Shown piece by piece: positions 8,097 to 22,917 of a stretch of 42,525 nt of DNA. Source of the DNA: a virus; IMG/VR virus record IMGVR_UViG_3300049927_000168, positions 1 through 42,525 of that record; one strand, given 5' to 3'. The position numbers and the translations under genes were made by a program. Below the pieces are notes generated by a model. The model worked only from the letters and a program-made list of their open reading frames with translations. It had not been told where the DNA came from and did no database searches. Each line of letters starts with the position of its first letter. Within the stretch, counting starts at the first letter, position 1.

Positions 8097-8759
8097 ATGA
8101 AAGCGTTTGGTTATTTTCTTTTATGGCTTAGCTTTTTATGCGTACCTGCACTGGCGCAGCAAGCGAGCCCGAGTAATTTGCCGGGCGGTTTGTATTTCAC
8201 GACGCCGCCGACGCTCACGAACAAGCAGCAAAGTATTTTTCAGGTGGACGTTAATGGTAATCTCAAGGTTGTGTCAGCGGGCACGCCTTCCGGTACGCAA
8301 GACGTTAATGTTAAGCAAGTTGGTGGCGCAACGGCAGCGCAGGGGCATGGCACCGCAGCGGCAGCGTTGCGTGTTGAACTTCCGACAGATGGCACTGGTG
8401 TACTCGGCTTGAACGCAGGTACGGCCATTGTTGGTAAGTTTGGTATTGACCAGACCACTCCAGGCACCACAAACGGGGTGACTTTGACTGGCAATAGTTT
8501 TGCCAACATCACTACGTCGACTACAACCACGGTAAAATCAGGTGCCGGTGTTTTGCATACGGTTTGTGTGAATACTGACGGCACGGTGGCATCGGCTGTG
8601 CAGATGTATGACAACACGGCAGCATCGGGCACAAAAATTGGCAACATAAACTCGCTTAGCACTACGGGGTGTTATACTTACGATGTTGGGTTTTCTACGG
8701 GTTTGACGCTTGTAACGACCGGTACGGTGGCGTCCGACATCACTGTCAGCTATAGGTAA
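8097..8759 (+). CDS. Virion-type protein with signal peptide (220 aa)
   Basis: The ATG at 8097 follows the portal stop by four bases, with GAGG upstream. Residues 1-20 are a classical Sec signal (MKAFGYFLLWLSF, then VPALA before QQA). The C-terminal 90 residues resemble a beta domain frequent in phage structural proteins: VKSGAGVLHTV, then MYDNTAASGTKI, then a VGFSTGLTLVTTGTVAS strand pair ending TVSYR. Two Cys (VCVN and TGC) could form a disulfide in the periplasm. It is probably a decoration or fibre-associated protein, but an exported virion protein is unusual, so a secreted role outside the particle is also possible. Confidence 0.6.
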   Translation: MKAFGYFLLWLSFLCVPALAQQASPSNLPGGLYFTTPPTLTNKQQSIFQVDVNGNLKVVSAGTPSGTQDVNVKQVGGATAAQGHGTAAAALRVELPTDGTGVLGLNAGTAIVGKFGIDQTTPGTTNGVTLTGNSFANITTSTTTTVKSGAGVLHTVCVNTDGTVASAVQMYDNTAASGTKIGNINSLSTTGCYTYDVGFSTGLTLVTTGTVASDITVSYR

Positions 8760-8765
8760 AAGCTT

Positions 8766-10436
8766 TTGAAAAAGCTATTTGCAGCTTTATTTTTTCTTTT
8801 AACGGCTGCGACGGCGCAAGCACAAAATGTGCTGCCATCTTGCAACTGGGGTGACATGCTTTACCGGGGCAATCTTGGATGGCAGTGCGTCCCTTACGAC
8901 AACACGCCCGGCAAGCTCCTCAAAGGGCAGGGCAGCTCGGCCGCGCCCGTATGGGCATTTCAGGCCGATCAAAATTTTCTGTTGCCGACGCAGTCGACCA
9001 ACACCATCCTTGGCAACATCACCGGCGGCAGCGCGTCCCCTTCGCCGATGACGGTTTCGCAGGCGCTTGACACTACGGCTTTTGCGAGCCTTAGCCCTCA
9101 GGCTGTTGCCGGCACGGTCCTTTATCGAGGCTTGGGGTCGCTAGGATGGCAGTTTTTGGCTCCTGGTGCCGCTGGCCAAGTTCTCACCACTGGTGGTGCT
9201 GTAAACCCTCCTTATTGGGCTACAGGTGGATCAGGCTCGGTGACTTCGGTCGGCCTCACGGTGCCGTCTGAGTTGAGCGTGTCAGGTTCCCCGGTTACCG
9301 GGGCGGGGACGCTTGGGATTACGTGGACCAGCCAGAGTGCAAATCTTGTGCTTGCCTCACCTGACGGGCTTAGCGGTAACCCATCTTTTCGTGCGCTGAC
9401 AAACACTGATATTGCAGCCGCGCTGCCGTCGGCATCGACCTACCTTGACACTCTCGGCTCAACCCGTGGTTCCCTCCTTTATCGCGGCACGGGTGGATGG
9501 ACAATTTTGCCACCGGGTACCGCGGGGCGTTTATTGGCTTCTAACGGCGCCGGCGCTGATCCGAGCTGGGCAACTGTTCCGGGCACAGGCACCGTGACCA
9601 GCGTGGATGCTTCTGGTGGTACGACGGGGTTTACGTTTAGTGGTGGCCCGATCACCGGTGCTGGCACGCTGACCCTGGCAGGCACGCTGGGCACGGCCAA
9701 TGGCGGACTGAATATTACCTCTTACGCGCAGGGTGACATTCTCTACGCCTCGAGTTCAAGCGTGGTCTCAAAGCTTGCCAAAGATACAAACGCTACGCGC
9801 TATCTTGCCAACACTGGCACGACCAACAACCCCGCATGGGGGCAGGTTAATCTCGCCAATGGCGTTACGGGGAACCTCGGGGTAGCAAATCTGAATTCAG
9901 GCACCGGCGCCACGGCTAATACATTTTGGCAAGGTGATGCCACATGGTCGGCAGTTAATCTTGCCAATGACGTGACGGGCAATTTGCCGGTGGCTAATTT
10001 AAACAGCGGCACCAGTGCATCAAGTTCAACGTACTGGCGCGGTGATAGCACGTGGGCTTCTGTTTCTTACCAAATGGCGAGTTCTTCTTGCAGTGTTGCG
10101 CAAGCGACTACAGCGTACTGTTCTTTTACTGGAGTATCTAGTGGTACAGAGGCCGATCTTCTTTACCCCATGGCTGTTGGGACAGTAATTACTGGTATCT
10201 CGGTAAGAACAGTAAGTGTTATTGGTGGGGCGGCGCAGACGGCAACATATACGGTTAGAAATAATACAGGCGATACGCTTATTACTTGTCAGATAAGCTC
10301 GGGGTCTCCATTGTGTAGTGATACTTCACATAGTTCAACTTATGGGGTCGGCGATTTATTATCTATTAAAATAGTAAATTCAGCAACAACAGGCACCGTT
10401 GTTAGTAAAATTGTGCTAGCAATGCACCCATCGTAA
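8766..10436 (+). CDS. Repeat-containing tail-fibre-like protein with signal peptide
   Basis: A 556-residue protein with a TTG start. Residues 1-19 form a signal peptide ending AQA. Three copies of a LYRG...GW...PPGTAG.LL...G....PxWA unit lie near residues 22-60, 118-152 and 237-270. Two VNLAN.VTGNL.VANLNSGT....T.W.GD.TW units lie near residues 360-435. Such modules are typical of phage tail fibres and adhesins. The last 120 residues form a Cys-containing beta domain. It is probably a receptor-binding or decorating fibre; host-surface binding is inferred. The signal peptide and the Cys pair at the mature N-terminus (CNWGDMLYRGNLGWQC) are odd for a cytoplasmically assembled fibre. Confidence 0.65.
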   Translation: MKKLFAALFFLLTAATAQAQNVLPSCNWGDMLYRGNLGWQCVPYDNTPGKLLKGQGSSAAPVWAFQADQNFLLPTQSTNTILGNITGGSASPSPMTVSQALDTTAFASLSPQAVAGTVLYRGLGSLGWQFLAPGAAGQVLTTGGAVNPPYWATGGSGSVTSVGLTVPSELSVSGSPVTGAGTLGITWTSQSANLVLASPDGLSGNPSFRALTNTDIAAALPSASTYLDTLGSTRGSLLYRGTGGWTILPPGTAGRLLASNGAGADPSWATVPGTGTVTSVDASGGTTGFTFSGGPITGAGTLTLAGTLGTANGGLNITSYAQGDILYASSSSVVSKLAKDTNATRYLANTGTTNNPAWGQVNLANGVTGNLGVANLNSGTGATANTFWQGDATWSAVNLANDVTGNLPVANLNSGTSASSSTYWRGDSTWASVSYQMASSSCSVAQATTAYCSFTGVSSGTEADLLYPMAVGTVITGISVRTVSVIGGAAQTATYTVRNNTGDTLITCQISSGSPLCSDTSHSSTYGVGDLLSIKIVNSATTGTVVSKIVLAMHPS

Positions 10437-10451
10437 GCAAAGAGGCAGAGT

Positions 10452-11351
10452 ATGTCGCTTTTAATTCCGTTTAAACTACCTTTTAATACTGCCCCGGGCG
10501 TCGATAAACGTTCTTCGGTGTGTGCTTGGCATTCGAAAGATTTGGTGATTTTAAATAACAGGGACGACGGCGGTAATCCTGATACGCAGGTGAACATAAT
10601 CCGCATAGCTGAGCTAGCCCTGCTCTCGCCAACCGATACCAATCAGCGTGGAGTATTCAAGTCCAGCCCGATGCGGGTGTGCAATATCGACCACCGGCCG
10701 CTGCTCGATTTGCCTTTGACAATGGACATAACCCAAGTTGGCAATATGGGCCGCGGGGAGGGGGTGCCCTACCGTGCTAAGCAGGGCTACCTTCTTTGGG
10801 GCCAATCGAACGATATCGAAGGTGTAGAGCCAGAGTTCCGGTTTACCACAGGCATCGGTGATGGGCCTATCGGCGCGCCGGAGGACTTCGTCTACAAGGC
10901 TCCGCTGTATTGGACCTTTACTGACAATGGCGCTGCCAACAATGGAGTGAACCCCCGCTTGGCCAAGATCGCGAAGGTAGACATTTGGTCAGCCTTCATG
11001 GAAGGTACGCAGCCTTTGCTGCATTCTGGCGTGTCGATCGGCAATGATCCGGTGCTTGGTGGAACGACAGACTGGGTGAGGATTGGTGCTTATTATGAAG
11101 GTGGTGATCTTCACGGGTTCTCGTCCCCAACTGGCGGTTTTAACTTCGAACTACTGATAGAGTATGGCACAAGTGGCAAGCGAACAAAGATCGGCGCGGA
11201 TCGCGTCACTGTAGATTGGGACAAGACAGGTCGCGGTGTCATCGAGCGAGAGACTTTACGCCTTTGCGGCTGGGCGGGCACCGCCTTTTGGATTGACACC
11301 AATGATCCTGCCATCAAGGTTTACCTCAAAGCCTTCGACGATCAATTCTAG
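10452..11351 (+). CDS. Hypothetical late protein (299 aa)
   Basis: A 299-residue protein with AGAGGCAG before its ATG. It reads as a single globular, beta-rich protein with many Trp, Gly and Asp. I saw no signal peptide, membrane helix or enzyme motif. It lies between a fibre-like protein and the endolysin with short gaps on both sides, so it is expressed late and is probably structural (fibre, baseplate or capsid-associated). I do not recognise the family. The mixed fold and length would also fit a fibre-tip or chaperone role. Confidence 0.55.
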   Translation: MSLLIPFKLPFNTAPGVDKRSSVCAWHSKDLVILNNRDDGGNPDTQVNIIRIAELALLSPTDTNQRGVFKSSPMRVCNIDHRPLLDLPLTMDITQVGNMGRGEGVPYRAKQGYLLWGQSNDIEGVEPEFRFTTGIGDGPIGAPEDFVYKAPLYWTFTDNGAANNGVNPRLAKIAKVDIWSAFMEGTQPLLHSGVSIGNDPVLGGTTDWVRIGAYYEGGDLHGFSSPTGGFNFELLIEYGTSGKRTKIGADRVTVDWDKTGRGVIERETLRLCGWAGTAFWIDTNDPAIKVYLKAFDDQF

Positions 11352-11366
11352 CCAAGGAGCAAGAGC

Positions 11367-11906
11367 ATGCCCACCCCAGTGAACCTGACTTTGAGTGGAG
11401 GAGTTGAGCTTGCTGCTGAAGCGTTCGATGACGCCGCGGCGATCATCGCCGGCGGTAGTGCTGACAAACTTGCATTTACGGATGCGATTAGTGAAGCCAT
11501 CACGGCGATGGCCGGAGGAGGTGAGGCAGATTTTCAGTTTAAATCGGGCATCATCACAAGAAATCTTGCCGATGCTAACGGTACAATTACTACGTTGGGG
11601 CTTGGTTTTGACCCGTCAGCGGTCGAGTTTGATTGCTGTATCAATGGCCTTGTTGTAAACGGCGGGGGGTTGACTTCGAAGGGTGTAGTATCAGGGACGG
11701 CACCAAATATTAGCCAACAATGCCAGTACCGCAACTACGACCAGTCCCTCACGGTCGGCCCTGGCTTCACCTGCTTCGCCAACGTGTCTAGCGGCAACTA
11801 TGCGCAAGGGACCGCGGCGCTCGTCGAAGATGGATTTTCCCTTACTTGGGTTAAAGTAGGATCGCCAACCGGCACCCTGCAAATTTGGTATAAGGCCTGG
11901 AGATAA
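11367..11906 (+). CDS. Hypothetical late protein (179 aa)
   Basis: A 179-residue protein with AAGGAG upstream, starting MPTPVNLTLSGGVELAAEAF. The first 55 residues are Ala-rich and probably helical. From about residue 60 it is a beta domain ending in a Trp-Lys-Val-Gly-Ser-Pro-Thr-Gly-x-L-Q-I-W-Y-K-A strand, which resembles the C-terminal beta sandwiches of small virion decoration proteins. Position between fibre-like genes and the endolysin supports a structural role. No family was recognised with certainty. Confidence 0.5.
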   Translation: MPTPVNLTLSGGVELAAEAFDDAAAIIAGGSADKLAFTDAISEAITAMAGGGEADFQFKSGIITRNLADANGTITTLGLGFDPSAVEFDCCINGLVVNGGGLTSKGVVSGTAPNISQQCQYRNYDQSLTVGPGFTCFANVSSGNYAQGTAALVEDGFSLTWVKVGSPTGTLQIWYKAWR

Positions 11907-11914
11907 ATTTTTAG

Positions 11915-12499
11915 ATGAGCTGGGCAACGATCACGGGAAAAGAATTTACTGCGACGGAATTTAAAAATTATGTTGCGCGTCTTTCAATTTTTCAGGGAGC
12001 GAAATTTTGTGTTGTGCATAGCACTGGCGCGCCGACATTGCAGCAGTGGTATCACTCAAAAGGATGGCCGCCAAAGCGGCGCATAAATGAAAGCCTTCCT
12101 GATTTTTATAAAAGTAAAAAACCACCTTGGCATGCCGGTCCTCATCTTTTTATTGATCAGGATTTTATTTGGGGATTTACGCCGATGACCGTTGCCGGCG
12201 TGCACACGCCATCGTGGAATGATCGTTCGATCGGCGTAGAGATCGTGGGAAATATGGATGTTGAGCCGTTCACCGAGCAGCATCGTAAGCTGGTCGCTGC
12301 TGCACTGGGGGTGATACACAGCAAAATGGACTGGGACCCGGCAAAATTTGTTTTGGGGAAATCCGGTCTTCATTTTCATAGGGAAGACCCCAAGACGACA
12401 CATAAGGATTGTCCAGGCAGAAATGTCGTGAAGGCACAGTTGATAAAAGACGTGCAAAATTATATGCATGATGGTAGCTTACCCACAGTGGTTTCTTAA
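11915..12499 (+). CDS. N-acetylmuramoyl-L-alanine amidase (endolysin)
   Basis: A 194-residue amidase_2 (T7 lysozyme type) that cuts the amide bond between the glycan and the stem peptide in peptidoglycan at the end of infection. Zinc ligands appear as His35 (VVHSTGAP), His153 or His155 (LHFHRED) and Cys166 (HKDCPGRN), with Lys164 in the catalytic position. SIGVEIVGN (105-113) is the usual central strand. There is no cell-wall-binding domain and no signal peptide, so it depends on the holin at 12514. It opens the lysis cassette. The ribosome site (GGAG) is somewhat far from the ATG. Confidence 0.9.
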   Translation: MSWATITGKEFTATEFKNYVARLSIFQGAKFCVVHSTGAPTLQQWYHSKGWPPKRRINESLPDFYKSKKPPWHAGPHLFIDQDFIWGFTPMTVAGVHTPSWNDRSIGVEIVGNMDVEPFTEQHRKLVAAALGVIHSKMDWDPAKFVLGKSGLHFHREDPKTTHKDCPGRNVVKAQLIKDVQNYMHDGSLPTVVS

Positions 12500-12513
12500 A
12501 AGGAGCAAAGGCA

Positions 12514-12834
12514 ATGGCACTTCCGGTTCCGAATATCGACCAGGTCAAATCGACGATCCGTTCAACGGGGCTATTTCTTGTTGGCCTATTTGGCGGCTGG
12601 TTTGCTTCCAAAGGCTGGTTTACGATTGATCAGCTGACGAGTGTTTTCAACAATCAGGTTTTCCTGGCAGCGGCCGGTGGCATTGTTTTGTGGGTTTGGG
12701 GGCTTGTTGCGCATACCGATGCTGCAAAAATTAATGCTGCAGCTACGGTTGCGGAGGTGCAAAAGGATGCGCTTACCCCGGAAGGCTTAAAATTGGCCAA
12801 CGCTTCTCCGGTTACTGAGGTAAAAACGGCTTGA
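12514..12834 (+). CDS. Putative holin (106 aa)
   Basis: A 106-residue membrane protein with two helices, about 18-33 (TGLFLVGLFGGWFASKG) and about 49-66 (FLAAAGGIVLWVWGLVAHT), then a charged cytoplasmic tail. Size, topology and position between the endolysin and spanin genes match class II phage holins, which open the inner membrane to release the endolysin. AGGAG lies upstream. Its last codons overlap the next start (TTGA). Sequence alone cannot separate a holin from a holin partner. Confidence 0.75.
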   Translation: MALPVPNIDQVKSTIRSTGLFLVGLFGGWFASKGWFTIDQLTSVFNNQVFLAAAGGIVLWVWGLVAHTDAAKINAAATVAEVQKDALTPEGLKLANASPVTEVKTA

Positions 12835-13055
12835 CGCCGGCGCTGCTCATAGGCTGCGCTGCTGCTGTAGTGATAGTGCTTGCTATTTTTGTGATTTGGT
12901 TCGTCAATTATCGCGGGCAAAAAGAAGGGGCGGCGGACGCCAATGCGCAGCTGGCTAATAAAAATGCAGACGCAGGTCGTAAAGCGGCGGACATTGTCGC
13001 TGAGTATCGGGATGATGACGATGCTGTTATCCGGCTGCGGCGCGGGGATTTTTAG
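12831..13055 (+). CDS. Inner-membrane spanin (Rz-like, 74 aa)
   Basis: A 74-residue protein with a TTG start overlapping the holin stop. One N-terminal membrane helix (about 4-24, ALLIGCAAAVVIVLAIFVIW) is followed by a short charged, probably coiled-coil periplasmic part. This is the layout of an i-spanin, which fuses inner and outer membranes with an o-spanin after the wall is cut. The periplasmic part is shorter than in lambda Rz. The o-spanin start lies inside this gene, in another frame, as in lambda Rz/Rz1. Confidence 0.7.
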   Translation: MTPALLIGCAAAVVIVLAIFVIWFVNYRGQKEGAADANAQLANKNADAGRKAADIVAEYRDDDDAVIRLRRGDF

Positions 13056-13209
13056 CTGCCCACCGCTGGTTGCTTACTCACCCACTTTTCAGCAGCAGGC
13101 TGCCCAGCAACTTTCCGCGATTGTTAAAGGCTCTCCTGTTCGAGTGCTGGTCACGCACTATGGCCAGTTACGCGATGCTTGCCGGGCTCTGGGGGAGAGA
13201 CATTCATGA
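12964..13209 (+). CDS. Outer-membrane spanin lipoprotein (Rz1-like), embedded
   Basis: A lipoprotein that starts inside the i-spanin gene in a different frame. The lipobox LLSGC is preceded by a hydrophobic stretch (TLSLSIGMMTM) and a basic KRR. After lipidation about 57 residues remain, with a Cys-Pro-Pro turn and a short helix. I chose the ATG at 12964 because it gives a signal of normal length (25 residues to Cys). An ATG at 12943 and internal ones at 13012/13015 are alternatives; none has a strong ribosome site. It should pair with the protein at 12831. The stop overlaps the next ATG. Confidence 0.65.
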   Translation: MQTQVVKRRTLSLSIGMMTMLLSGCGAGIFSCPPLVAYSPTFQQQAAQQLSAIVKGSPVRVLVTHYGQLRDACRALGERHS

Positions 13210-13457
13210 TGGCAGCAGGGGATATTGGAACTGTTCCGCAGTGGATAACGGCGCTTGTTTCACTGGCGGTATACTGGAAGGCCAGAAATGCGGCAAAAGA
13301 GATCAGCTTAGTGCATCACGAAACTAATTCTATGAGGGCGGCGCTCGAGGTTGCTAAAAAAGCGGAAGGTAATCTTGAAGGCCGTAAAGAATTGCGCGGG
13401 GAGCAAAACGAGGCAATTGTCGCTGCTGAGGAAAGTGGCGGAGCGGTAAAAACCTGA
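13206..13457 (+). CDS. Small membrane-anchored protein in the lysis cassette (83 aa)
   Basis: An 83-residue protein with GGGGGAGAG upstream and two consecutive ATG codons. Residues about 5-25 (GDIGTVPQWITALVSLAVYW) form one membrane helix. The rest is a charged helix or coiled coil (NSMRAALEVAKKAEGN). Related small membrane proteins often follow spanin genes in phages. It could be an antiholin or a second holin component. I do not recognise a named family. The stop overlaps the next ATG (TGATG). Confidence 0.6.
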   Translation: MMAAGDIGTVPQWITALVSLAVYWKARNAAKEISLVHHETNSMRAALEVAKKAEGNLEGRKELRGEQNEAIVAAEESGGAVKT

Positions 13458-13741
13458 TGGAGGCTGAACTATTAAAGCTCGGTGTTGCCGGCCTTTTTCT
13501 GCTTTTTGTGATCCTGGCCTGGAAGGAAGAGCGAAAAGAAAAAAAAGAGTTGTTGCTTAAAAATCAGCAGCAGTCAGAGGAATTATTGACCTTTTACAAA
13601 TCCAGCGTCGATGCTAACGTGGCTTCAGCGCAGGCTATGAACGAAAATACGCGCGCGACGCAAGCAGTGGCCATGGGCTATCAAAATACGATGGACGGCA
13701 TAAAGGAAATTTTGCTTATCTTAAGGAACCGGCGCCGATGA
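13457..13741 (+). CDS. Membrane-anchored coiled-coil protein (94 aa)
   Basis: A 94-residue protein with one N-terminal helix (about 5-21, LLKLGVAGLFLLFVILAW), a strongly charged KEERKEKKELLLK segment, and a long coiled coil. Topology is like an i-spanin or a holin modulator. It is coupled by overlapping stop and start codons to the genes on both sides, so the three small proteins after the o-spanin form a tight unit. Function unknown; a second spanin-like or lysis-timing role is inference from position. Confidence 0.6.
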   Translation: MEAELLKLGVAGLFLLFVILAWKEERKEKKELLLKNQQQSEELLTFYKSSVDANVASAQAMNENTRATQAVAMGYQNTMDGIKEILLILRNRRR

Positions 13742-13938
13742 GCTTGTATGATAAAATCAAAAAAGCGATTAGCCCTGAAAAAATAATTGTGGCACCTCCA
13801 GCGTTAACGATTGCTGATATAAAAGCAGCTCACCAGCTGGTTCAGAGTTCAACCCGGTTGATGGAAAATGCGCTGGAGAGAAATAAAAAAGCTAATTCTG
13901 TGCTCATTCAATTAGTTGAGCGGAGCGATGCAGCGTAA
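13738..13938 (+). CDS. Small helical hypothetical protein (66 aa)
   Basis: A 66-residue protein starting MSLYDKIKKAISPEKIIVAP, followed by a long amphipathic helix. ATGA overlap with the previous gene. It has no membrane helix. It ends the lysis-linked run and is followed by a structured leader before the scaffold gene. Family not recognised. It may bind the coiled coils of its neighbours. Confidence 0.5.
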   Translation: MSLYDKIKKAISPEKIIVAPPALTIADIKAAHQLVQSSTRLMENALERNKKANSVLIQLVERSDAA

Positions 13939-13953
13939 CCTTTCGTTTTTAGG

Positions 13954-14065
13954 TTGACTATTTCTTATAAATAGCAAATAAATAAGGTTCGACTGATGGC
14001 CGTAAGTCATCCTCGACCCGCACCCGTAAGGTGCTTTCGACTGGTGGCCGTAAATCACCGAGGAG
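13954..14065 (+). promoter_or_regulatory. Structured leader before the scaffold gene, possible promoter
   Basis: TTGACT at 13954 opens an A/T-rich stretch with only weak -10 candidates near 13977-13984. Three small hairpins follow: GATG/CATC (13995-14011), GCACC/GGTGC (14020-14034) and GGTG/CACC (14043-14059). Each has CGTAA in its loop. The 22-base element around hairpins one and three is a direct repeat (13988 and 14036) with an A-to-G change in the stem matched by T-to-C opposite. The third hairpin abuts the GAGGAG ribosome site. This suggests a protein- or RNA-binding leader that controls scaffold and capsid expression. Confidence 0.45.
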
Positions 14066-14071
14066 CGCAAT

Positions 14072-14848
14072 ATGCCGAAAAATAAAGCAGCCGAAATTGA
14101 AGAGGAAGTTATTGACGATGGTGAAGAGCAAGAGCTCGGAGAAACTGAAGAAGTTACCGGCGAAGAAGCCGCTGATGAAGTTAGTGACCCGGAAAACCCA
14201 GACGGTGAAGAAGCCGAAGGGGACGACGAGGCGGGGCTATTAGAGGGCGAGCAACCTGCACGCCCTAGCCGGCGCGAGGCGACAGTCCTAAGGGCTAAAG
14301 AGCAAGCCCGCACAGAACGAGAAGCTCGTGAAAAGAGCGACCGTGAAGTCGCGGAACTGAAAGTGAGGTTGGAACAGCTGCAGCGATCGCAGCAGGGGAA
14401 AGAAGACCCGGAAGAAGAAGAGCGTAAAATGGCTCTTATGACCCCGCGGGAGCTTGTCGATTATAAGCTAAATAAAGCCTTAGGCGGTTTTACCCAGCAG
14501 ATGGCGATGTCCCAGTTTCAGACAGCAGATGTTGCTGACAAAACGGCCTTCCAGACCTTATGCGCAAGCGATCCTCGAGCTAGAAGGTTTGCTGGTAAAG
14601 TCGAGCAGATTTTAGCCGAACATCGCCAACGCGGCCAGAATGTTAAACGGGAGGACCTCTTGAAATACGTAGTAGGAGAAGAGGTGTTCAAAAAACCCGC
14701 AAAAACACCTGATAAGCAGCGGCAAGACGGGCAGCGCAATATCCAGCGGCACACGACCAAGCCGGTCAATGCTCGCGGCGATGTTGCAACTAACCGCGGA
14801 AAGACGGGTAAGACAGCCGCAGACCGGCTGGCGAACGTGAGAATTTAA
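14072..14848 (+). CDS. Capsid scaffolding protein (258 aa)
   Basis: A 258-residue protein with a highly acidic N-terminus (about 1-70, runs of Glu and Asp), a helical, charged middle with coiled-coil character (about 70-125) and a basic C-terminus. This charge layout, with the gene directly before the major capsid protein, is typical of podovirus scaffolds. The scaffold guides prohead assembly through its basic end and then leaves. GAGGAG lies at a good distance. Upstream is a hairpin leader that may regulate it. No protease domain is visible. Confidence 0.85.
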   Translation: MPKNKAAEIEEEVIDDGEEQELGETEEVTGEEAADEVSDPENPDGEEAEGDDEAGLLEGEQPARPSRREATVLRAKEQARTEREAREKSDREVAELKVRLEQLQRSQQGKEDPEEEERKMALMTPRELVDYKLNKALGGFTQQMAMSQFQTADVADKTAFQTLCASDPRARRFAGKVEQILAEHRQRGQNVKREDLLKYVVGEEVFKKPAKTPDKQRQDGQRNIQRHTTKPVNARGDVATNRGKTGKTAADRLANVRI

Positions 14849-14898: not shown

Positions 14899-16242
14899 AT
14901 GCCTACAAATACAGCCTCTCAATTTCAGTCTGATATTGAGGAGTTCATCGCCGATGAAACTCTGCCCCTGGCACGTCGCCAGCTTGTAGCCTACCAGTTC
15001 GGTGACCCGCTAACGCTCGACGAGGGCCGCGGCACCACGTATACGGCAACCCGGTTCAACCGTCTGCCGCTCCCCTTCGCGCCGCTCTCCGAAGGCGTCC
15101 CGCCGGTTGGTGAGACGATGACGATTGCTCAGGTCTCAGCGACCGCGCAGCAGTGGGGCGATAAGGTCACGATCACCGACGTGGCCGAAATGACCATTAA
15201 GCACCCGCTTTTCAAAAAGGCCATCGAGCTTACCGCTCTGCAGGTCTCAGAAACGTTGGAGCGCAACACCTTCAACAACCTCATGGCTGGCACGCAGGTG
15301 AACTACGTGAATAGTCGCGGCGCCCGTGCCAACCTCGTGGCGGGCGACGTTATGAACCCGCACGAAATCGGGCGCGCCAGTGCCATCCTGGTGACCCTCG
15401 GTGCCCCGCGTTACATGGGCGACGAGCAGACCGACACCAAGCTGGAAGCGGATGCAGGGGGTGCTCGAGCCTCCGACAACCCGCGCATGATGCCGCACTA
15501 TGTTTCCCTCATCCATCCGCTCGTTGCGCAGGATATGCGGGAAAATAGCTCGATCAATACAGCCTGGTCCTACTCCGACATCAACCGGCTTTACAACGCC
15601 GAGCTTGGTGAGTGGAACGGCATCCGCTTCTGCCAGTCGAACATGATACCTTTCTTCACCGGCGTCGCGCAGGTGAACGGGGTGACGGGTACCGCGGGCA
15701 CCTTGGCTACTGGTAACTATTACGTCCAAGTGACTGCGCAGGATACTCAAAACCAGTACGAAAGCCTGATTTATCAGGTCTCGGCGGTGGTTGCGGTTGT
15801 CGGTCCGAACGGCTCTATTGCCATCACGGTTCCGAGCACAGTGGGTTACACTTACAATATCTACATTGGCACGACGACCTCGCCGGCAAACCTGGGCGTT
15901 TCCACCTCAGGCCCGACGGTCGGGCCGCTGGCAGGGCAGGCCACGCAGATTGCACCGGGCACCGTTGCGGTGGTTACTGCCCTTGGCACGGCGCAGACAC
16001 CTCCGGCTGCTCCGGCAACCGGCATCACGGTCTACCCGACCTTCATCATCGGCCGCGGCGCTTACGGCCAGGTGGTGCTCGACGACGTGAAGTTTACCTA
16101 CCTCAGCACCGCCGACAAGGCGGACCCGCTGAACCAGCAGCGCATCGTGGGCTGGAAGAACTTCTACGGCATGCTTATCGAAAATCAGCAGTTCTTTATG
16201 CGGATTGAGAGCACGTCGGCGTTTAGCACAACCTTCGGCTAA
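14899..16242 (+). CDS. Major capsid protein, N4-gp56 family, with inserted domain
   Basis: A 447-residue HK97-fold capsid protein of the N4-gp56 family. The N-terminal third shows the family pattern: a QFGDPLTLDEGRGTTYT segment, a P-L-x-E-G-V-P-P-V-G-E loop, Q-W-G-D-K-V-T-I-T-D, and a T-L-E-R-N helix with G-T-Q-V-N-Y. Between about residues 262 and 374 is a Thr/Val/Gly-rich beta stretch (Ig- or fibronectin-like). The family core then resumes at YPTFIIGRGAYG. The insert is probably surface-exposed and may serve as decoration or contact the host or mucus. CAGGAG precedes the ATG. It builds the icosahedral head with the scaffold at 14072. Confidence 0.9.
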   Translation: MPTNTASQFQSDIEEFIADETLPLARRQLVAYQFGDPLTLDEGRGTTYTATRFNRLPLPFAPLSEGVPPVGETMTIAQVSATAQQWGDKVTITDVAEMTIKHPLFKKAIELTALQVSETLERNTFNNLMAGTQVNYVNSRGARANLVAGDVMNPHEIGRASAILVTLGAPRYMGDEQTDTKLEADAGGARASDNPRMMPHYVSLIHPLVAQDMRENSSINTAWSYSDINRLYNAELGEWNGIRFCQSNMIPFFTGVAQVNGVTGTAGTLATGNYYVQVTAQDTQNQYESLIYQVSAVVAVVGPNGSIAITVPSTVGYTYNIYIGTTTSPANLGVSTSGPTVGPLAGQATQIAPGTVAVVTALGTAQTPPAAPATGITVYPTFIIGRGAYGQVVLDDVKFTYLSTADKADPLNQQRIVGWKNFYGMLIENQQFFMRIESTSAFSTTFG

Positions 16243-16260
16243 GTCAGGCTTTTAAAAAGT

Positions 16261-16288
16261 AGAAGAGCAGCAAAAGCGTTGCTCTTCT
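16261..16288. terminator. Strong hairpin after the capsid gene
   Basis: AGAAGAGCA (16261-16269) pairs with TGCTCTTCT (16280-16288) over 10 bases. On the plus strand the following AAATTTA has no long T-run, so termination would be weak. On the minus strand TTTTTAAAA follows. Its more likely use is as an mRNA-stabilising or partial terminator that sets the capsid-to-downstream ratio. Confidence 0.45.
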
Positions 16289-16323
16289 AAATTTAGGAGC
16301 TCACCTACACAGGGGTAAACTCG

Positions 16324-16614
16324 ATGGCTTTATCAACTTTCGGCAGCAATTCAACGAGCATTTTAAGCGCGCTGGCATGGAACCCGGCTTCGGCGCCGGC
16401 GGATGTTGCGCAGATCGCCGCTAACATTAAGGACGACTTAAATCCTGCACATCCGATTTCACCTGGGGCCTTTGCAAAAAACGGCTATCTTTACGTCCCC
16501 AATCGTGGCAGATTATTGCTGTTACCTGGCGACTATGTCGCTTATGGCAGCACAGGCTGGCCTATTTTGGTGAATGCCGCGGCTGTTGCAGCAGACTGGA
16601 CGCATAGCCCTTAA
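16324..16614 (+). CDS. Small capsid-neighbour protein (96 aa)
   Basis: A 96-residue protein directly after the capsid gene, as often found with N4-gp56 capsids. The C-terminal half, NGYLYVPNRGRLLLLPGDYV and then a Trp-Pro-Ile-Leu-Val segment, is a compact beta domain with a conserved-looking P-x-R-G-R-L-x-L-L-P-G-D core. It is probably a head decoration or head-completion protein. This is inferred from gene order, as I do not recognise a named family. Confidence 0.6.
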   Translation: MALSTFGSNSTSILSALAWNPASAPADVAQIAANIKDDLNPAHPISPGAFAKNGYLYVPNRGRLLLLPGDYVAYGSTGWPILVNAAAVAADWTHSP

Positions 16615-16623
16615 GAGGAAAAA

Positions 16624-17163
16624 ATGCCGAGAAAGAAAAAAGTGCCTGCTGACTACAGCGTGCTGACCGAAGGTGAGCAGCTGGAACTCAACAAAGAAGC
16701 CAAGGAACTTGCTGCGCAAGCTGATGCAGCTGAGATTGAAAGTGCAGCTGAAAAAATCCGACGTGACCGTGGCGCTGCCCCGAAAGATATTGAGCTTTTA
16801 AGTAAAGCTGAACGCGATGAATTACTTAAAGACGCAGCACAGCATGTGCTTGCTGAGCGACGCCGCGTTGCTAAAGAGGCTTTTCTAAAAGACGCGATCG
16901 CTAACGAGCGTCGCAAGCTTATGCCGGAAGAAGAGCTTGTTACTTTTCACATCAACCTGGCTGAGTTTTGCCCTTACTTAATGGTCGATGGCCGCATCTA
17001 TTATCATGGGCAAACCGTCACTGTTCCGAAGGCTAAAGCGGACAGCATGCGTGATACCATCGCGCGCGGCTGGGAGCACCAGGGTGAGATCGAAGGCAAG
17101 AGCCGCAAGACTTACCGTAAGCAGATGGAGCCTGTTCTTTCAGGCAAGCAAGTGTCGCTGTAA
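16624..17163 (+). CDS. Coiled-coil hypothetical protein (179 aa)
   Basis: A 179-residue protein. Residues 1-120 are charged, Ala/Glu/Lys/Arg-rich and helical. Residues about 125-150 form a small strand-rich piece (FHINLAEFCPYLMVDGRIYY, HGQTVTVP) resembling a motif seen in small phage head-associated proteins. AAGAGGAAAAA precedes the ATG. Between capsid and adaptor genes, it is probably a virion or assembly protein. Function unknown. Confidence 0.55.
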   Translation: MPRKKKVPADYSVLTEGEQLELNKEAKELAAQADAAEIESAAEKIRRDRGAAPKDIELLSKAERDELLKDAAQHVLAERRRVAKEAFLKDAIANERRKLMPEEELVTFHINLAEFCPYLMVDGRIYYHGQTVTVPKAKADSMRDTIARGWEHQGEIEGKSRKTYRKQMEPVLSGKQVSL

Positions 17164-17204
17164 GGCGGCAGTTTTTAATTTTCACAGCCGAAAAAGGAAA
17201 TGCT

Positions 17205-17711
17205 ATGAGCGCCGATAACGCTACTCCTACCGATGCCGATAAAGAAGCCGCAAAACGTCATGCTTTCGAGCGAGCGGTTGCCACTGAGTGCCTTTTCCAG
17301 GGCAAAGTGTCAGCTGACAGAGACCTCGCCATTCGCTGCTTTATTCCCATGGACGCTTCCGAGGCCGTTTATAATTCAGTGCTGGACAAACTTTATAAGG
17401 TCTTCGAGCGCCAAAAAGCGAAAGCTGAAATTATCGCGTTGGAGAAGCACCTCGAGGTGCACCAGCGCACTGCTGATGACGTGGCCAAGCAAAAAGACCT
17501 GGTCACTGTTAAAGCGCAGGAAAAGTACAATAAGGGCAACAAGCGCATCCCCTACGAGCCGAGTGAAAAAGAGAAAAACGATCTCGCCGGCTTGGAGGAC
17601 ACGCAAAAGCGCGGGCGCGAGGAAATTGAGAAAGCTAGAAAGCTCATTGCAGAGCGTAAAGCTCTGGTCGAAAACCTTGGCGAGGGAGCTGAGGAGTTAA
17701 AGGCAAAATGA
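17205..17711 (+). CDS. Coiled-coil hypothetical protein (168 aa)
   Basis: A 168-residue protein with AAGGAAA before its ATG. An N-terminal region with two Cys (ATECLFQG and AIRCFIP) is followed by a long, charged coiled coil (about 65-165). I do not recognise it. The next gene starts one base past its stop codon. Likely a virion or assembly factor by position. Confidence 0.5.
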   Translation: MSADNATPTDADKEAAKRHAFERAVATECLFQGKVSADRDLAIRCFIPMDASEAVYNSVLDKLYKVFERQKAKAEIIALEKHLEVHQRTADDVAKQKDLVTVKAQEKYNKGNKRIPYEPSEKEKNDLAGLEDTQKRGREEIEKARKLIAERKALVENLGEGAEELKAK

Positions 17712-17712
17712 A

Positions 17713-18474
17713 ATGGCGCTGTCTTATCAGCAAATCGTCACGCTTGCGTGCCAGATTGCCAAGTGCCCGCGGTACACCGCGCAGGCAGGGCAGCTGATAG
17801 CCGCAATTTTAGATGAGCTCATCGAAAATTATGATTTCGACATCGTGCGCGGCAGTGCCAATTTTAATTTCAACACTGCCGCGACTGGCCCTTTAGGCTA
17901 CGCGCCGGGCTCCGGTCCGAACCTTATGCCTGCTGATTTTTTGCGCGTGCGCAACGATAATCCTGAGGCTGATGACAGTGGGGCTTTTTACACGATTAGC
18001 GGCGTGCCTTATGCGATGGTAGCCGTGGTGCAGACCGAGTTTGATGCTTTTGTGCAGCAGGCCGGCCTGAATAGCTTCCCCCGCTGGTATTATATCGACC
18101 TCTCCACCGACCCTGCCGGCATGTATGTGTGGCCGCCGCCATCCGGCGCTTACCCCGTAACTGTACGCTATCAGCGGAAGATGCCAAATCTGGCAGCTCC
18201 TGAAAGCAGTTCAGACATCCCGTGGTTTCCTAATACGAATTATTTAATTACGCGCCTCGCCGGTGAACTCATGCGCATCACCAACGACGCTCGTGCTTCT
18301 GAATTTCTTGGGGATAACGACGATCGCACGCCGCTTGGCGCCGGTGTTATCCTGCGCAAGTATTTGAAAATGAAAGATGACCCTACGGGTAAAGTGAAGC
18401 GCGTGACCCTTGATCCCGCGCGGTTTCGTCCTAATTTTAACAGGCTGCCGAACACCAAAACTATTGGGTGGTAG
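17713..18474 (+). CDS. Head-tail adaptor (P22 gp4-like connector)
   Basis: A 253-residue protein with the pattern of podovirus head-tail adaptors: an N-terminal helical domain (IVTLACQIAKC, then L-D-E-L-I-E-N-Y-D-F-D), an F-L-R-V-R-N segment, and near residue 135 the P-A-G-M-Y-V-W-P-P-P motif followed by YPVTVRYQRKMPNL. It should bind under the portal ring (5894) and hold the tail hub (18477). Size is close to the family's usual 170-260. Position between capsid and gp10-like protein supports the call. Confidence 0.75.
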   Translation: MALSYQQIVTLACQIAKCPRYTAQAGQLIAAILDELIENYDFDIVRGSANFNFNTAATGPLGYAPGSGPNLMPADFLRVRNDNPEADDSGAFYTISGVPYAMVAVVQTEFDAFVQQAGLNSFPRWYYIDLSTDPAGMYVWPPPSGAYPVTVRYQRKMPNLAAPESSSDIPWFPNTNYLITRLAGELMRITNDARASEFLGDNDDRTPLGAGVILRKYLKMKDDPTGKVKRVTLDPARFRPNFNRLPNTKTIGW

Positions 18475-18476
18475 GC

Positions 18477-20093
18477 ATGAGTTTAGCGAACACTTTTCCG
18501 CTAACGTTTTCGCCGGTCGGCTTGTCCGACACCTTGGATGCGAGCAACAGTTTTCGCGGTGCGATGACCTCGCTCAAAGATTTAATACCTGACCCGTCAA
18601 CAAGAAATTTATGGCAGTGTCGACCAGCGGCGATCCCGCAAACTACTTTCCCCGCATTCAATACGCCGGGCTTTATTTCAGCGCTGGAGGTCATTGGCAC
18701 GCGCGCTTATGGCATGATTGCCAGCGCTGCAAATCCCGGCAAAGATGAACCATTTTGTTTTGATCTTGAAACCGGCGCTTTCGTGGCAATCACCGGCGTG
18801 ACGAATGCTAATACGCCGGCCAGCCCCGCCAGTTCTGGGGCATGGACGCCGCCTACGATGAGTTTGGTTGGCTCTAAGCTTGTGGTCACTCACTCCGGTT
18901 TTTCGGTGACAGCCAAGTTTTTTGGCTGGATCGATCTTGCTAACCCGGCGGCGCCGACATGGGATGCCGGAAATACAACGACTAACGCTTTACCGGCGGT
19001 TCCCACGGCAGTGAAGAATTTTAATGGACGTGCTTATTACCTGGTAAACCCGGCAGCAGGGCAGCCTGGTGCTTATTTTTCTGATGCGCTCAATCCCTTG
19101 GTTATTACGAATGCCAATCAGGTGCTTACTTTTGACGACAATGTGCCGCTGACTGCTCTGGGTGCACTGCCATTAAGCAATCAGCTTGGTGGCGTTATTC
19201 AATCGCTCATCGTTTTCAAGGGTGCGACGAATATGTACCAAATTACTGGCGACAGTGCGCTGATGAACTTGACTGTGAATTCGCTCAACGTGGCAACCGG
19301 GTCCTTGGCGCCGAATTCTGTCTGTACGACGCCTAAAGGCCTCGCTTTCATGGCACCCGACGGCATACGCTATATCGACTTCAATGCACAGGTTTCTGAC
19401 CCGGTGGGGGATAGTGGTGAAGGGGTGACGGTACCGTTTATTTTTGCGAACGTGCCCTCGCGCGTGTGCGCCGCGTGCAACGCTAAGGTCCTGCGCGTGA
19501 CCACGCAGAACAACAACGCCACCGGCTCGCCTTTCCAGGAGTATTGGTATGACCTGACCCGGGGCGTATGGAGCGGCCCGCATAGCTTTCCAGCCTCTTT
19601 AATTCAGCCTTACGGCAAGTTTTTTATTCTCACGGGGCAGGGTGTTACTGCCAAGCTCTTCAAGAGCGAGAGCGTGCAGTCTAACACCAGCACCTTTGTT
19701 GAGAACGGCGTGCAGCTTGCCTTTAATTATTTGACCAGCGTGCTGCCTGACACTAAGCAGATGGCCGAAAACAATATGCTGGAGACGACTTTGAAGATGG
19801 CGCTGGCAGCGGGTGGCCAGTACGCGATTACTGCGCAGGATGAACAGGGTTCGATTTTTGACACTTACATTTTGGCAGCTGCGGGCAACACGACCTTATG
19901 GGGTAATTTCGTATGGGGGCAGGCGCTTTGGCAGGGCGCTGCGAATGCGCTTGCGGTGCGCCTCATACCGTGGCAAATTCCGATTGTCTTCTCGCGCGTC
20001 GCCATGGGCGTCACCGGCAACTCAGCCGCCGGCGTCAAAATCGGCGATCTTGGGATGCGGTACGAGCAGCTGGGATATGTGTTGCAGACATGA
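18477..20093 (+). CDS. Tail hub / DNA-stabilising protein (P22 gp10-like)
   Basis: A 538-residue protein starting MSLANTFPLTFSPVGLSDTL. It is beta-rich with repeated strand-turn units such as NFNGRAYYLVNP and TPKGLAFMAPDGIRYIDF. These are signatures of gp10-type packaged-DNA stabilisation proteins, whose central part is propeller-like. It closes the head after packaging and bridges adaptor and tail. I prefer ATG 18477, two codons past the previous stop, to GTG 18468. Its stop overlaps the next start (ATGA). Confidence 0.75.
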   Translation: MSLANTFPLTFSPVGLSDTLDASNSFRGAMTSLKDLIPDPSTRNLWQCRPAAIPQTTFPAFNTPGFISALEVIGTRAYGMIASAANPGKDEPFCFDLETGAFVAITGVTNANTPASPASSGAWTPPTMSLVGSKLVVTHSGFSVTAKFFGWIDLANPAAPTWDAGNTTTNALPAVPTAVKNFNGRAYYLVNPAAGQPGAYFSDALNPLVITNANQVLTFDDNVPLTALGALPLSNQLGGVIQSLIVFKGATNMYQITGDSALMNLTVNSLNVATGSLAPNSVCTTPKGLAFMAPDGIRYIDFNAQVSDPVGDSGEGVTVPFIFANVPSRVCAACNAKVLRVTTQNNNATGSPFQEYWYDLTRGVWSGPHSFPASLIQPYGKFFILTGQGVTAKLFKSESVQSNTSTFVENGVQLAFNYLTSVLPDTKQMAENNMLETTLKMALAAGGQYAITAQDEQGSIFDTYILAAAGNTTLWGNFVWGQALWQGAANALAVRLIPWQIPIVFSRVAMGVTGNSAAGVKIGDLGMRYEQLGYVLQT

Positions 20094-21721
20094 AAAAGCG
20101 CCTACTTATAGCTTTTGCCCTCTTACTTGCAGCTTTTAGCAGCGCGCAGGCGCAAATCGTTAATACGCTGCCTTTCAACCTACAGAACAACACGACCGCT
20201 GATGCCACCCAGGCGATGGCCGATTTCTTGCAGATCGTAAACAACGTCAATACTAATGCGGCAAAAAATGGCTCGAACAATGACATCACAGCTCTTTTGG
20301 CGCTGACAACCCCGCTTACTCCCGTGCAGGGGGGCTCGAGTGTTTATACGGCAGCGACTTCTACGGGCTCGGCAAACTCGCAAGTGGTCAGCTCTCCAAT
20401 TCCGACGGGTTTCAGCCTCGCCATTAATAAGCGGATTGTCTTTACAGCTGGTTTTACGAACACCAGTGCCACTACTTTCAATATAAGTAGTACCGGCGCC
20501 ACCGCAGTTTTTAAATTGACACCCACTGGTTCCGCAGCGCTCACAGGCGGTGAGATTGTTGTTGGTAGCATTGTCGAAGCGATTTATGATGGGACGCAGT
20601 ATCAGCTTATCACGAATAATTTGGCGTTGCTGGGCCCGTTGATGAGCCTTGCGTCGGCGTCTACAGCTGATTTTGGAACGATCTCGAGCCATAATATCAG
20701 CCTGACTGGTACGACGACCATCACTTCTTTTGGCTCGACCGCGGTTACTAGCACTCCAATTTATTATTTTACGCTCGCGGGTGCGATCACGCTCACCTAT
20801 AACGCGACTTCGCTTATCATTCCCGGCGCCACTGATTTTGTCGGCGCCGCCGGTGACAGCGGCGCGGCCCTTTATCTTGGCTCTGGCAATTGGCGCATTT
20901 TGAGCATTACACGGGCAAATGGTTTGGGCGTATTGCCTTCACCGACGCCTCTTTGTGGTGCCATCGGCTTCACGATGACGAATAATGCAGGCACGCCCAG
21001 CACGAGCATCGATATGGCAGCTGAACAGGCTGTGATGCTCAATAGCGCGGGGGTTGCTATTTCGGCAAGCAGCGTCGCGGTGACGGTGAATACGACAACG
21101 ACAGGAGCAAACGCGCTTGACACGGGTACGCGTGCCAACAGCACATGGTATAATTTTTATTTGATCTCAAATGGTACGGCAACTGCCGGGCTTGCGAGCT
21201 TGTCGGCAACCTCTCCCACCATGCCGAGTGGCTACACCTATAAATGCCGCTTAGGAGCCATGCGTACTGATGGTTCAGCTAATTTCTACCGAACACTGCA
21301 AATAGGCGCAGTTACGCAATATAAAGTTGTTGCTGGCAGCAACACGCTTTTGCCACCGCTCATTCAGAATGGAACTCTCGGCACGGTCAGTGTGACGTCG
21401 CCGACGCTCGCGACGATCACGGTCAAAGGTTCCGGCTCTAACGTTATACCGCCCACCGCAGGAGCTTTGTTCATACTGGCCCGAGCAACTGGCGGCGGCG
21501 CAGGTGTTCTTGTCGCACCTAATACAAGCTGGGGTGGCGCAAATAACGGCCCGGCAGGAGCGAACGGGGTCATTTATCCGGTTTATGCTTCGTCGAGCAC
21601 GATAACTTTGAACCAGGGTGCGTGGATAGACCTTGAGGCTACTACAATCGCTGCGGCGCTCGACAACGCCAATGATAAAATCTCGATTTTATCCTGGCGT
21701 GACGTCGTAAATGCAAATTGA
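20090..21721 (+). CDS. Tail-fibre-like protein with signal peptide (543 aa)
   Basis: The ATG at 20090 overlaps the previous stop and starts a clear signal peptide (MKKRLLIAFALLLAAFSS, ending AQA at about residue 21). The mature N-terminus, LPFNLQNNTTADATQAMAD, is the anchoring segment found at the start of many phage fibre and baseplate proteins. Residues about 270-420 contain the fibre module with G-A-N-A-L-D-T-G, a W-Y-N-F-Y-L-I-S-N-G strand and P-S-G-Y-T-Y-K-C. It is probably a tail appendage. A longer frame to 19913 exists but has no start that fits. A fibre with a secretion signal is unusual. Confidence 0.65.
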   Translation: MKKRLLIAFALLLAAFSSAQAQIVNTLPFNLQNNTTADATQAMADFLQIVNNVNTNAAKNGSNNDITALLALTTPLTPVQGGSSVYTAATSTGSANSQVVSSPIPTGFSLAINKRIVFTAGFTNTSATTFNISSTGATAVFKLTPTGSAALTGGEIVVGSIVEAIYDGTQYQLITNNLALLGPLMSLASASTADFGTISSHNISLTGTTTITSFGSTAVTSTPIYYFTLAGAITLTYNATSLIIPGATDFVGAAGDSGAALYLGSGNWRILSITRANGLGVLPSPTPLCGAIGFTMTNNAGTPSTSIDMAAEQAVMLNSAGVAISASSVAVTVNTTTTGANALDTGTRANSTWYNFYLISNGTATAGLASLSATSPTMPSGYTYKCRLGAMRTDGSANFYRTLQIGAVTQYKVVAGSNTLLPPLIQNGTLGTVSVTSPTLATITVKGSGSNVIPPTAGALFILARATGGGAGVLVAPNTSWGGANNGPAGANGVIYPVYASSSTITLNQGAWIDLEATTIAAALDNANDKISILSWRDVVNAN

Positions 21722-21746
21722 GTTTCACATCCAAGCATGTTATAAA
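21718..21746 (+). promoter_or_regulatory. Internal sigma-70 promoter
   Basis: TTGAGT (21718-21723), 17 bases, TATAAA (21741-21746). It overlaps the end of the upstream fibre gene and lies about 28 bases before gene 21774, which has an AAGGAGG site. It may boost expression of the two small secreted proteins and what follows. Confidence 0.55.
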
Positions 21747-21773
21747 TTCGGTATCGCCTTTAAGGAGGGCAGC

Positions 21774-22394
21774 ATGAAACGAATTCTTAGCTTTTTAAGC
21801 GCCGTTATTTTTTCAGGCGTTCTTGCTGCCTCCGCAGCCAATATCCCACTTTACACAGGGCCAGCGGGTACAAACCCGACAGCTGATTTTCCTATCGGCC
21901 TCGGCACGATCAACCAGCTCATTCAGGCCATCAATACGGGCGTAAGTGGGGCGTTGAACGCACAAACCGGCGCGGTTGCGACTGGTGCGGGTACATCCGA
22001 GCAAATTCTGCAGCAATATACGCTGCCAGCAAACTCGCTCTCAGCAGCAGGCCAGCAGGTCACAGTCCGTTGCTGGGGCACGACTGCGGCCAATACGAAC
22101 AACAAAACGCGCAAGCTTTATTTTGGTGCGTCGGTAATCACGACCGCGACTGAAGCTGCGAACGCAGCTGGCTGGGACCTTAGCTTGACCGTTATGCGTA
22201 CTGGCGCTGCTACTCAGGCAGTTGTTGGTCGCGGGCAGGCGGGCACGGCAGGTGCCACGAACATCACAGTTTACACGAATGCTGGTACCGACAACCTGGC
22301 AGCCAACGTGCTGATCAAGTGCACCGGTACGGATGCCACAGATGCCGCAGGCGACATCACGGCGAACGGCATGATAGTGAGCGGCGTAAAATAA
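21774..22394 (+). CDS. Virion-type protein with signal peptide (206 aa)
   Basis: The ATG at 21774 has a perfect AAGGAGG. Residues 1-21 form a signal peptide (MKRILSFLSAVIFSG, cleavage near ASA|A). Just past it, NIPLYTG and a N-Q-L-I-Q-A-I-N helix resemble the mature start of the proteins at 20090 and 22396. The body contains the structural-protein pattern Y-T-L-P-A-N-S-L, then R-C-W-G-T-T-A-A-N-T-N-N-K-T-R-K-L-Y-F-G, common in tail-associated beta domains. Probably a tail or capsid decoration protein that can be exported. Confidence 0.65.
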   Translation: MKRILSFLSAVIFSGVLAASAANIPLYTGPAGTNPTADFPIGLGTINQLIQAINTGVSGALNAQTGAVATGAGTSEQILQQYTLPANSLSAAGQQVTVRCWGTTAANTNNKTRKLYFGASVITTATEAANAAGWDLSLTVMRTGAATQAVVGRGQAGTAGATNITVYTNAGTDNLAANVLIKCTGTDATDAAGDITANGMIVSGVK

Positions 22395-22395
22395 G

Positions 22396-22917
22396 ATGAA
22401 GCGTTTTTTATCAGCATTTCTGGCACTGGTCCTAACATTGGGGCCCGCTTATGCGGGCTCCCAAATTCCCTATCGTACGGGAGGCTCTCAGGACACGCCG
22501 GTTGCGCTGATCAACAGCCTCATCAAGGCCATCAATGCGAACACGACGGCGGACAGTGCCAGCAGCACGGCTCTGGTTGCGCGCGTGACGGCTTTGGAAG
22601 CCTCGGTCACCACCAACACGACGGATATTGCGACCAACGCCACAGCCATTGCCCTGGTCAATACCAAACTGTTGACCCTCGGCAAAAGCGCCGTTGTGGC
22701 AGGTGGCACTGCGGGCGACTTCACCGTCACTGGCATCGCGGTCGGTGACCAGATCGTGGCGGTCATTCGCTTTATTGGTGCCGGTGTCGCGGTCACTGAC
22801 CTTTCGAACCTAACCGCACAGTTCACGATTACGGGCAATAACACGATCAACAACACTGGCGGTACGAACACAACTGGTGACAAGCTGTTGGTTTTGTATA
22901 ATAATTTAACCCCTTAG
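22396..22917 (+). CDS. Small secreted-type late protein with coiled coil (173 aa)
   Basis: Residues 1-20 form a signal peptide (MKRFLSAFLALVLTL, then PAYA|G). The mature N-terminus, IPYRTGG and N-S-L-I-K-A-I-N, matches the neighbour at 21774. A short heptad region (about 50-95, VTALEASVTTNTTDIATNAT) could make a trimeric coiled coil, followed by a beta domain (about 100-173). This is a fibre-like layout. The gene starts one base past the previous stop with a weak ribosome site, so translation probably depends on the upstream gene. Confidence 0.6.
   Translation: MKRFLSAFLALVLTLGPAYAGSQIPYRTGGSQDTPVALINSLIKAINANTTADSASSTALVARVTALEASVTTNTTDIATNATAIALVNTKLLTLGKSAVVAGGTAGDFTVTGIAVGDQIVAVIRFIGAGVAVTDLSNLTAQFTITGNNTINNTGGTNTTGDKLLVLYNNLTP

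Follow-up and report, generated by a model that had tools for sequence, protein, structure and literature searches.

Why should late genes for virion-type proteins of a tailed phage begin with signals for export out of the cytoplasm? The question is raised by the IMG/VR record IMGVR_UViG_3300049927_000168, analysed here over all of its 42,525 bases (the window). According to the textbook view, tailed phages are put together in the cytoplasm, and lysis alone takes their proteins across the envelope; to our knowledge no ordinary tailed phage is assembled with parts that mature outside the cytoplasm and join the particle later. The first-pass annotation had proposed that five late genes of the window, at 8097, 8766, 20090, 21774 and 22396 (products SP1 to SP5), start with Sec/signal peptidase I signals, and this is borne out by a rule-based scorer, by the start contexts and by relatives. 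In terms of sequence we establish the signals, a conserved cleavage site, a docking domain, a cysteine signature and the tail-fibre identity of the SP3 family. The predicted signal peptides are as follows.

8097..8156, forward strand: SP1 signal peptide, 20 amino acids, cleaved between PALA and QQ (sequence; scorer value 8.16), in the open reading frame (ORF) after the portal gene; two relatives cluster with SP1
8766..8822, forward strand: SP2 signal peptide, 19 amino acids, cleaved between AQA and QN, TTG start (sequence, scorer); the homologue in relative L009 also bears a signal
20090..20152, forward strand: SP3 signal peptide, 21 amino acids, cleaved between AQA and QI, its start overlapping the stop of the preceding gene (ATGA) (sequence, scorer, homologues)
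21774..21836, forward strand: SP4 signal peptide, 21 amino acids, cleaved between ASA and AN, Shine-Dalgarno sequence AAGGAGG (sequence, scorer)
22396..22455, forward strand: SP5 signal peptide, 20 amino acids, cleaved between AYA and GS (sequence, scorer)

The N-termini read MKAFGYFLLWLSFLCVPALA before QQ in SP1, MKKLFAALFFLLTAATAQA before QN in SP2, MKKRLLIAFALLLAAFSSAQA before QI in SP3, MKRILSFLSAVIFSGVLAASA before AN in SP4 and MKRFLSAFLALVLTLGPAYA before GS in SP5. All five proposed starts open true reading frames, that at 8097 lying four bases past the portal stop, after GGGGTGAGG, and that at 22396 one base past the previous stop. The scorer, which weighs n-region charge, hydrophobic core and the residues at -3 and -1, found a basic n-region, a hydrophobic core and small -3/-1 residues in exactly these five of the 27 forward-strand genes, the other 22 being negative. 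As a control, a permissive version that accepts any start near the 5' end was run on the minus-strand ORFs of relatives, where 19 of 1550 scored positive; this corresponds to a chance expectation of 0.33 per 27 genes and to a probability of about 2e-5 for five or more.

The mature part of SP3 is assigned from an alignment (A1), Collar domains in homologues and fold matches.

20153..21721, forward strand: SP3 mature part, 522 amino acids, tail fibre whose N-terminus carries a conserved docking motif, PFxLxNGTxADAxQ, with variable domains at the distal end

Proteins of the 20090 slot are diagnosed by this motif in its longer form, PFxLxNGTxADAxQVM. In 26 distinct homologues the residue at -1 is always alanine (26/26) and that at -3 nearly always (24/26), and the predicted cut falls exactly six residues ahead of the docking motif in 21 of them, the signal being thereby conserved at the domain boundary. 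All 25 invariant columns of alignment A1 (20 rows, two of which are fragments) lie within residues 28-168 of the 543-residue protein, the arrangement of a conserved N-terminal docking part and a variable distal part that is expected of a tail fibre. Of 27 large records, 12 had the Phage Tail Collar domain (PF07484) above the cut-off, and in all 12 it followed the docking motif at a distance of about 400-500 bases, with an open frame of equal length. A sequence search of the PDB with SP3 gave no match; its structural model (mean pLDDT 72) had one good PDB match, the tail fibre of Pseudomonas phage Pa193 (9b45; probability 1.00, E 3e-3, 26% identity over 100 columns), and also matched viral tail-fibre models in BFVD, one of them from a Rhizobium phage. 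Both the Collar domains of homologues and the fold thus identify the family as tail fibres, and a signal-less SP3 homologue matches tail-fibre PHROGs. Exactly one copy of the docking domain was present in each of the 26 records with a match, and neither the docking profile nor Collar revealed a signal-less duplicate in the genome that might stay in the cytoplasm and serve as the virion fibre.

The signals extend well beyond the window. A search of IMG/VR with the capsid protein gave 131 relatives, of which 80 were kept, and a portal search gave five loci. In these relatives signals were borne by 45 of 148 ORFs in the portal-to-scaffold interval and by 47 of 97 in the interval after the stabilisation/nozzle-type tail gene that precedes the fibre, compared with 16 of 557 in the head/neck block and none of 69 after the fibre block (post-nozzle slot versus minus strand, Fisher 4e-48). 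As judged from sequence, the predicted export signals are a trait of a large group of uncultured soil viruses and not a product of chance. A search with a docking-region profile gave 80 loci, 71 of them distinct, and in 65 of the 71 the gene right after the nozzle-type gene bore a signal, which the scorer detected in 64 and which is clear by eye in L166. The remaining six are signal-less and have their methionine a few residues ahead of the docking motif, at the predicted mature N-terminus, as in the pair formed by L109, which starts MTTIIGTLPFQLQNGTTADATQ, and L107, in which AAA is followed by the cut and QIVGTLPFQLQNGTTADATQ. Since the signal-less variants start where the mature protein would, the signal appears to be a removable module, the protein behind it being otherwise unchanged. 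Five signal-less lineages stand apart from one another on a tree built from the nozzle-type gene upstream. L109, L121 and L142 have a signal-less fibre, yet the next gene, the homologue of 21774, keeps its signal; the search of the fibre region of L125 and L175 revealed no signal. Right after the signal-less fibre genes of these last two lie small ORFs (L125:5307-5636 and L175:5545-5847), possibly cytoplasmic fibre chaperones, whose PHROG matches are weak and of unknown function only.

Exported bacterial proteins prefer even numbers of cysteines (PMC7678975). The cysteine pairs that had been noted in several mature parts are indeed there, the counts from SP1 to SP5 being 2, 6, 2, 2 and 0, and the same preference, expected of disulphide-bonded periplasmic proteins, holds among the mature signal-bearing proteins as a whole (92 even and 12 odd, against 176 even and 259 odd in the other late genes). 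Several of the odd cases resemble polytopic membrane proteins wrongly taken by the scorer, and with one representative per similarity cluster the ratio is 21 even to 5 odd (P 0.0025). Within the docking domain one cysteine stands just ahead of the motif and another about 20 residues after the motif start; in a first set of sequences both were present in 17, neither in 14 and a single one in none. The pair occurs in 45 of 64 signal-bearing versions as opposed to none of the six signal-less ones (P 0.0014), and on the tree two to three of the five independent signal losses accompany loss of the pair, while none goes the other way. Given the conserved cleavage site, the signal-less variants, the even cysteine counts and the lack of the pair in signal-less versions, the signal-bearing proteins are very probably exported and oxidised.

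The tail-fibre or decoration nature that had been ascribed to all five bodies is unevenly upheld: support is good for 20090 and 21774, moderate for 8766 and weak in the case of 8097 and 22396. The four other mature parts are predicted as follows.

8157..8759, forward strand: SP1 mature part, 200 amino acids, 2 Cys; probable virion or surface module, unclassified (matches in a relative and in phage records)
8823..10436, forward strand: SP2 mature part, 537 amino acids, 6 Cys; fibre-type repeats, GDMLYRG..GW (tblastn, Cys count)
21837..22394, forward strand: SP4 mature part, 185 amino acids; short helix, then lectin-like beta-sandwich (alignment A3, model, Foldseek)
22456..22917, forward strand: SP5 mature part, 153 amino acids, no Cys; N-terminus SP4-like (alignment A2)

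The SP2 repeats matched annotated tail-fibre proteins of cyanophages and of Achromobacter phage Motura. SP4 has two conserved cysteines, Cys100 and Cys183 (alignment A3), and its model (pLDDT 77) resembles, with low TM-scores, lectins, the carbohydrate-binding module (CBM) of the phage J-1 Dit protein and the CBD of the short tail fibre of cyanophage A-1(L). SP5 is 22% identical to SP4 (alignment A2) and had no relatives among the IMG/VR loci compared. SP1 gave no Pfam or PHROG match and is related over its full length to a protein of L009 (46%), its match in phage records covering mature residues 113-199 only; searches of phage records with SP1 and SP4 found almost nothing.

The remaining gene order bears on where such fibres would meet the particle. 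On the forward strand the window encodes a terminase (PHROG 38), a portal, a capsid protein of PHROG 1357, an adaptor, the nozzle-type protein and a lysis cassette with an amidase; on the reverse strand are replication genes, including DNA polymerase A and an SNF2 helicase. No tape-measure or tail-tube gene was recognised in the window, which is therefore likely to derive from a short-tailed phage.

17713..18474, forward strand: head-tail adaptor of the SU10 gp11 family, signal-less (PF24175, E 6e-11)
18468..20093, forward strand: stabilisation/nozzle-type tail protein, signal-less (weak similarity and synteny)
11915..12499, forward strand: endolysin (amidase_2), lysis cassette between the two signal-bearing clusters (PF01510, E 9e-12)
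12943..13209, forward strand: lipobox protein (LLSGC), probable Rz1-type outer spanin (sequence)

The nozzle-type protein is weakly similar to the 'phage stabilization protein' of ctKR88 (E 2e-4) and to a protein of a Manatee Spring phage (E 5e-7), and in 78 of 80 relatives its homologue is the neighbour of the fibre gene; a PDB sequence search with it gave no match. The outer-spanin function of the LLSGC protein we presume from what is established for spanins. Between the fibre cluster and the next structural-type genes lies a GNAT acetyltransferase (23020-23613), found in 17 related loci, and at 28278-29615 an ATP-grasp protein similar to phosphoribosylglycinamide synthetase, a 50% identical copy of which directly precedes the signal-less fibre gene of L177.

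Some relatives carry further envelope-type genes. L075 (135-860) and L088 (80-763) encode signal-bearing outer-membrane beta-barrels of rhizobial type (PF13505) just upstream of the capsid genes, and a similarity cluster with L004, L023, L068 and L080 comprises proteins that share an ADLPxKAP-type head and have other bodies. Membrane proteins lie in the portal-lysis interval of L007 (12248-13156), L018 (6071-6907) and L064 (5746-6942), that of L007 resembling an O-antigen ligase (PF04932, below the cut-off) and being possibly a surface-modifying gene. The beta-barrels and the ligase-like protein suggest that these phages alter the envelope. A host search through genome contigs matched two contigs of metagenome-assembled genomes (MAGs) and no more, which we take to be uninformative; the rhizobial outer-membrane relatives hint at Hyphomicrobiales, and, since the only isolate found to have signal-bearing tail genes, described below, infects Bradyrhizobium, an alphaproteobacterial host is likely.

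Taken together, we propose that the five proteins would leave the cytoplasm through Sec, lose their signals to signal peptidase I and fold in the periplasm, with disulphides where cysteines are present, and that 20090 at least, and probably 21774 and 8766, would serve the virion as tail fibres or receptor-binding parts. The signal-less components, namely the heads, portal, adaptor and nozzle-type tail, would be built in the cytoplasm, and the fibres would wait in the periplasm until holin, amidase and spanin open the envelope, when the conserved N-terminal domain could bind the tail. What we infer from the sequences is that the proteins are exported in cells and disulphide-bonded, that they reside in the virion and that they join the particle at lysis. 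The last is favoured because the portal, adaptor and nozzle-type proteins are signal-less, because an ordinary lysis cassette is present and, by analogy, because fibres or tailspikes of other phages, as in P22 and T4, attach to finished particles in vitro. We consider this whole route, from Sec export through periplasmic oxidative folding to the joining of a cytoplasm-built particle at lysis, reasonably probable. Periplasmic storage with attachment during lysis had been one of three readings initially offered and is the best fit among them, its export being supported and its attachment conjectural; for another, envelope-linked assembly, we found no specific evidence. That a widespread family of soil phages builds a two-compartment particle in this way, with heads and tails made in the cytoplasm and Sec-made disulphide fibres held in the periplasm, we would put at somewhat better than an even chance.

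Several observations weigh against this route. At least five lineages have no signal on the fibre, so export would not be essential for such virions. The window's own SP3 has neither a Collar domain nor the docking-domain cysteine pair, and for SP1 and SP5 there is no fibre evidence. The even cysteine counts lack phylogenetic independence and give a weaker result when tested by cluster, while the paired losses of signal and cysteines, being only two to three, are below significance on the tree.

The third reading, a surface decoy or receptor masking, is the main rival, in which the proteins are exported and never become virion parts, acting as envelope-bound or shed fibres that block receptors or exclude superinfection, or as lysogenic-conversion adhesins comparable to lambda Lom/Bor and T5 Llp. 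Export itself is well supported, and the beta-barrels of L075 and L088 and the ligase-like protein of L007 in the same region would suit such a role. However, in the 20090 family the N-terminal domain is strongly conserved and the distal part variable, the gene lies right after the nozzle-type gene, homologues have Collar domains, no second copy that could be the virion fibre was found in 26 genomes and signal-less relatives occupy the same slot. With a single fibre copy per genome and a conserved docking domain, masking is the less economical reading and we regard it as unlikely overall, its place remaining above all with 8097 and 22396. A mixed set, in which SP3 and SP4 are virion fibres made via the periplasm and SP1, SP2 and SP5 belong to the envelope and have no part in the particle, is possible though doubtful: conserved synteny and fold support exist for SP3 and SP4 only, with none for SP1 and SP5, and SP1 and SP2 fall within the portal-lysis interval, in which envelope proteins are encoded by relatives too, but the SP2 repeats are like those of annotated tail fibres and all five share the same signal design and even cysteine counts.

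Two further explanations dispense with export. Hydrophobic N-termini can have other roles, and as cleavage here is predicted they could be uncleaved segments used inside the particle, for membrane anchoring on entry or trimer packing; the conserved alanines at -3 and -1, the positive n-region, the sequence-variable core, the natural variants without exactly this segment and the even-cysteine signature of an oxidising compartment make this very improbable. As for chance hydrophobic starts or wrong start codons, longer upstream frames do exist for three of the five proteins, but the start contexts favour the called starts, five signals were observed where 0.33 were expected and dozens of relatives conserve the signal; given the control rates and this conservation, we reject both, and their probability is negligible.

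If fibres do mature in the periplasm, a disulphide-based fibre chemistry becomes possible, the host Sec and Dsb systems would be virion-assembly factors, and one would have to ask by what means the fibre and the particle come together. Such phages could also be sought by a sequence rule, namely a signal preceding a fibre docking domain, and the signal-less relatives are a ready natural comparison.

In the literature searched, mostly without subscription journals, we found no description or precedent of such signal-bearing fibres. The receptor-binding virion protein pIII of filamentous phages, which has a Sec signal and is disulphide-folded in the periplasm, works alike, but it is assembled at the inner membrane during extrusion, whereas the window represents a tailed double-stranded DNA phage with a lysis cassette. 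Lambda Lom and Bor, which are lysogenic-conversion genes, and T5 Llp are phage proteins with export signals, but they are neither virion parts nor fibre proteins; the SP3 family, with its fibre domains, does not conform to the lysogenic-conversion type, in which an export signal comes without them.

Among tailed phages, there is a close likeness to gp12 of SU10/phiEco32 and to T7 gp17-type fibres, in the SU10-family adaptor upstream, the N-terminal docking region and the variable distal domains. Fibres of the phiEco32 type share the motif GANSDITSLSGLTTPLSxxQGGTG with the SP3 family, whose homologues include Collar (PF07484) proteins. A search with the window's docking region itself found no match, and that of a relative did match phiEco32-type fibres, owing to the shared GANSDITSLSGLTTPLS motif. 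As the motif lies inside SU10 gp12 and not at its start, which reads MIVYNNQAPD, homology of the whole N-terminal domain was dropped and only the motif is claimed. The SU10/phiEco32/T7-type fibres are signal-less, whereas most SP3-family members have a predicted cleavable Sec signal; the window thus has the gp11-family adaptor (PF24175) of an SU10-type (Kuravirus) phage and departs from that type in the export signal on its long tail fibre. A distantly related Manatee Spring phage bears a signal on the ORF after the nozzle homologue and ctKR88, a podovirus from the same spring, does not; in the former a second signal-bearing ORF directly follows the capsid gene (L103:18321-18761). Rhizobium phages sharing the SP3 middle domain had no signals.

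A cultured isolate, Bradyrhizobium phage ppBdUSDA122-1 (OP596612), has two adjacent signal-bearing tail genes, WAX24264.1 and WAX24263.1, annotated only as hypothetical and tail fiber. Their products have even mature cysteine counts (6 and 18); the first shares the SP3 middle domain, and the second matches Collar and tail-fibre PHROGs. Although this phage differs in having a tape-measure gene (siphovirus-type) and an otherwise unrelated genome, its possession of the same feature makes the proposed model testable in culture.

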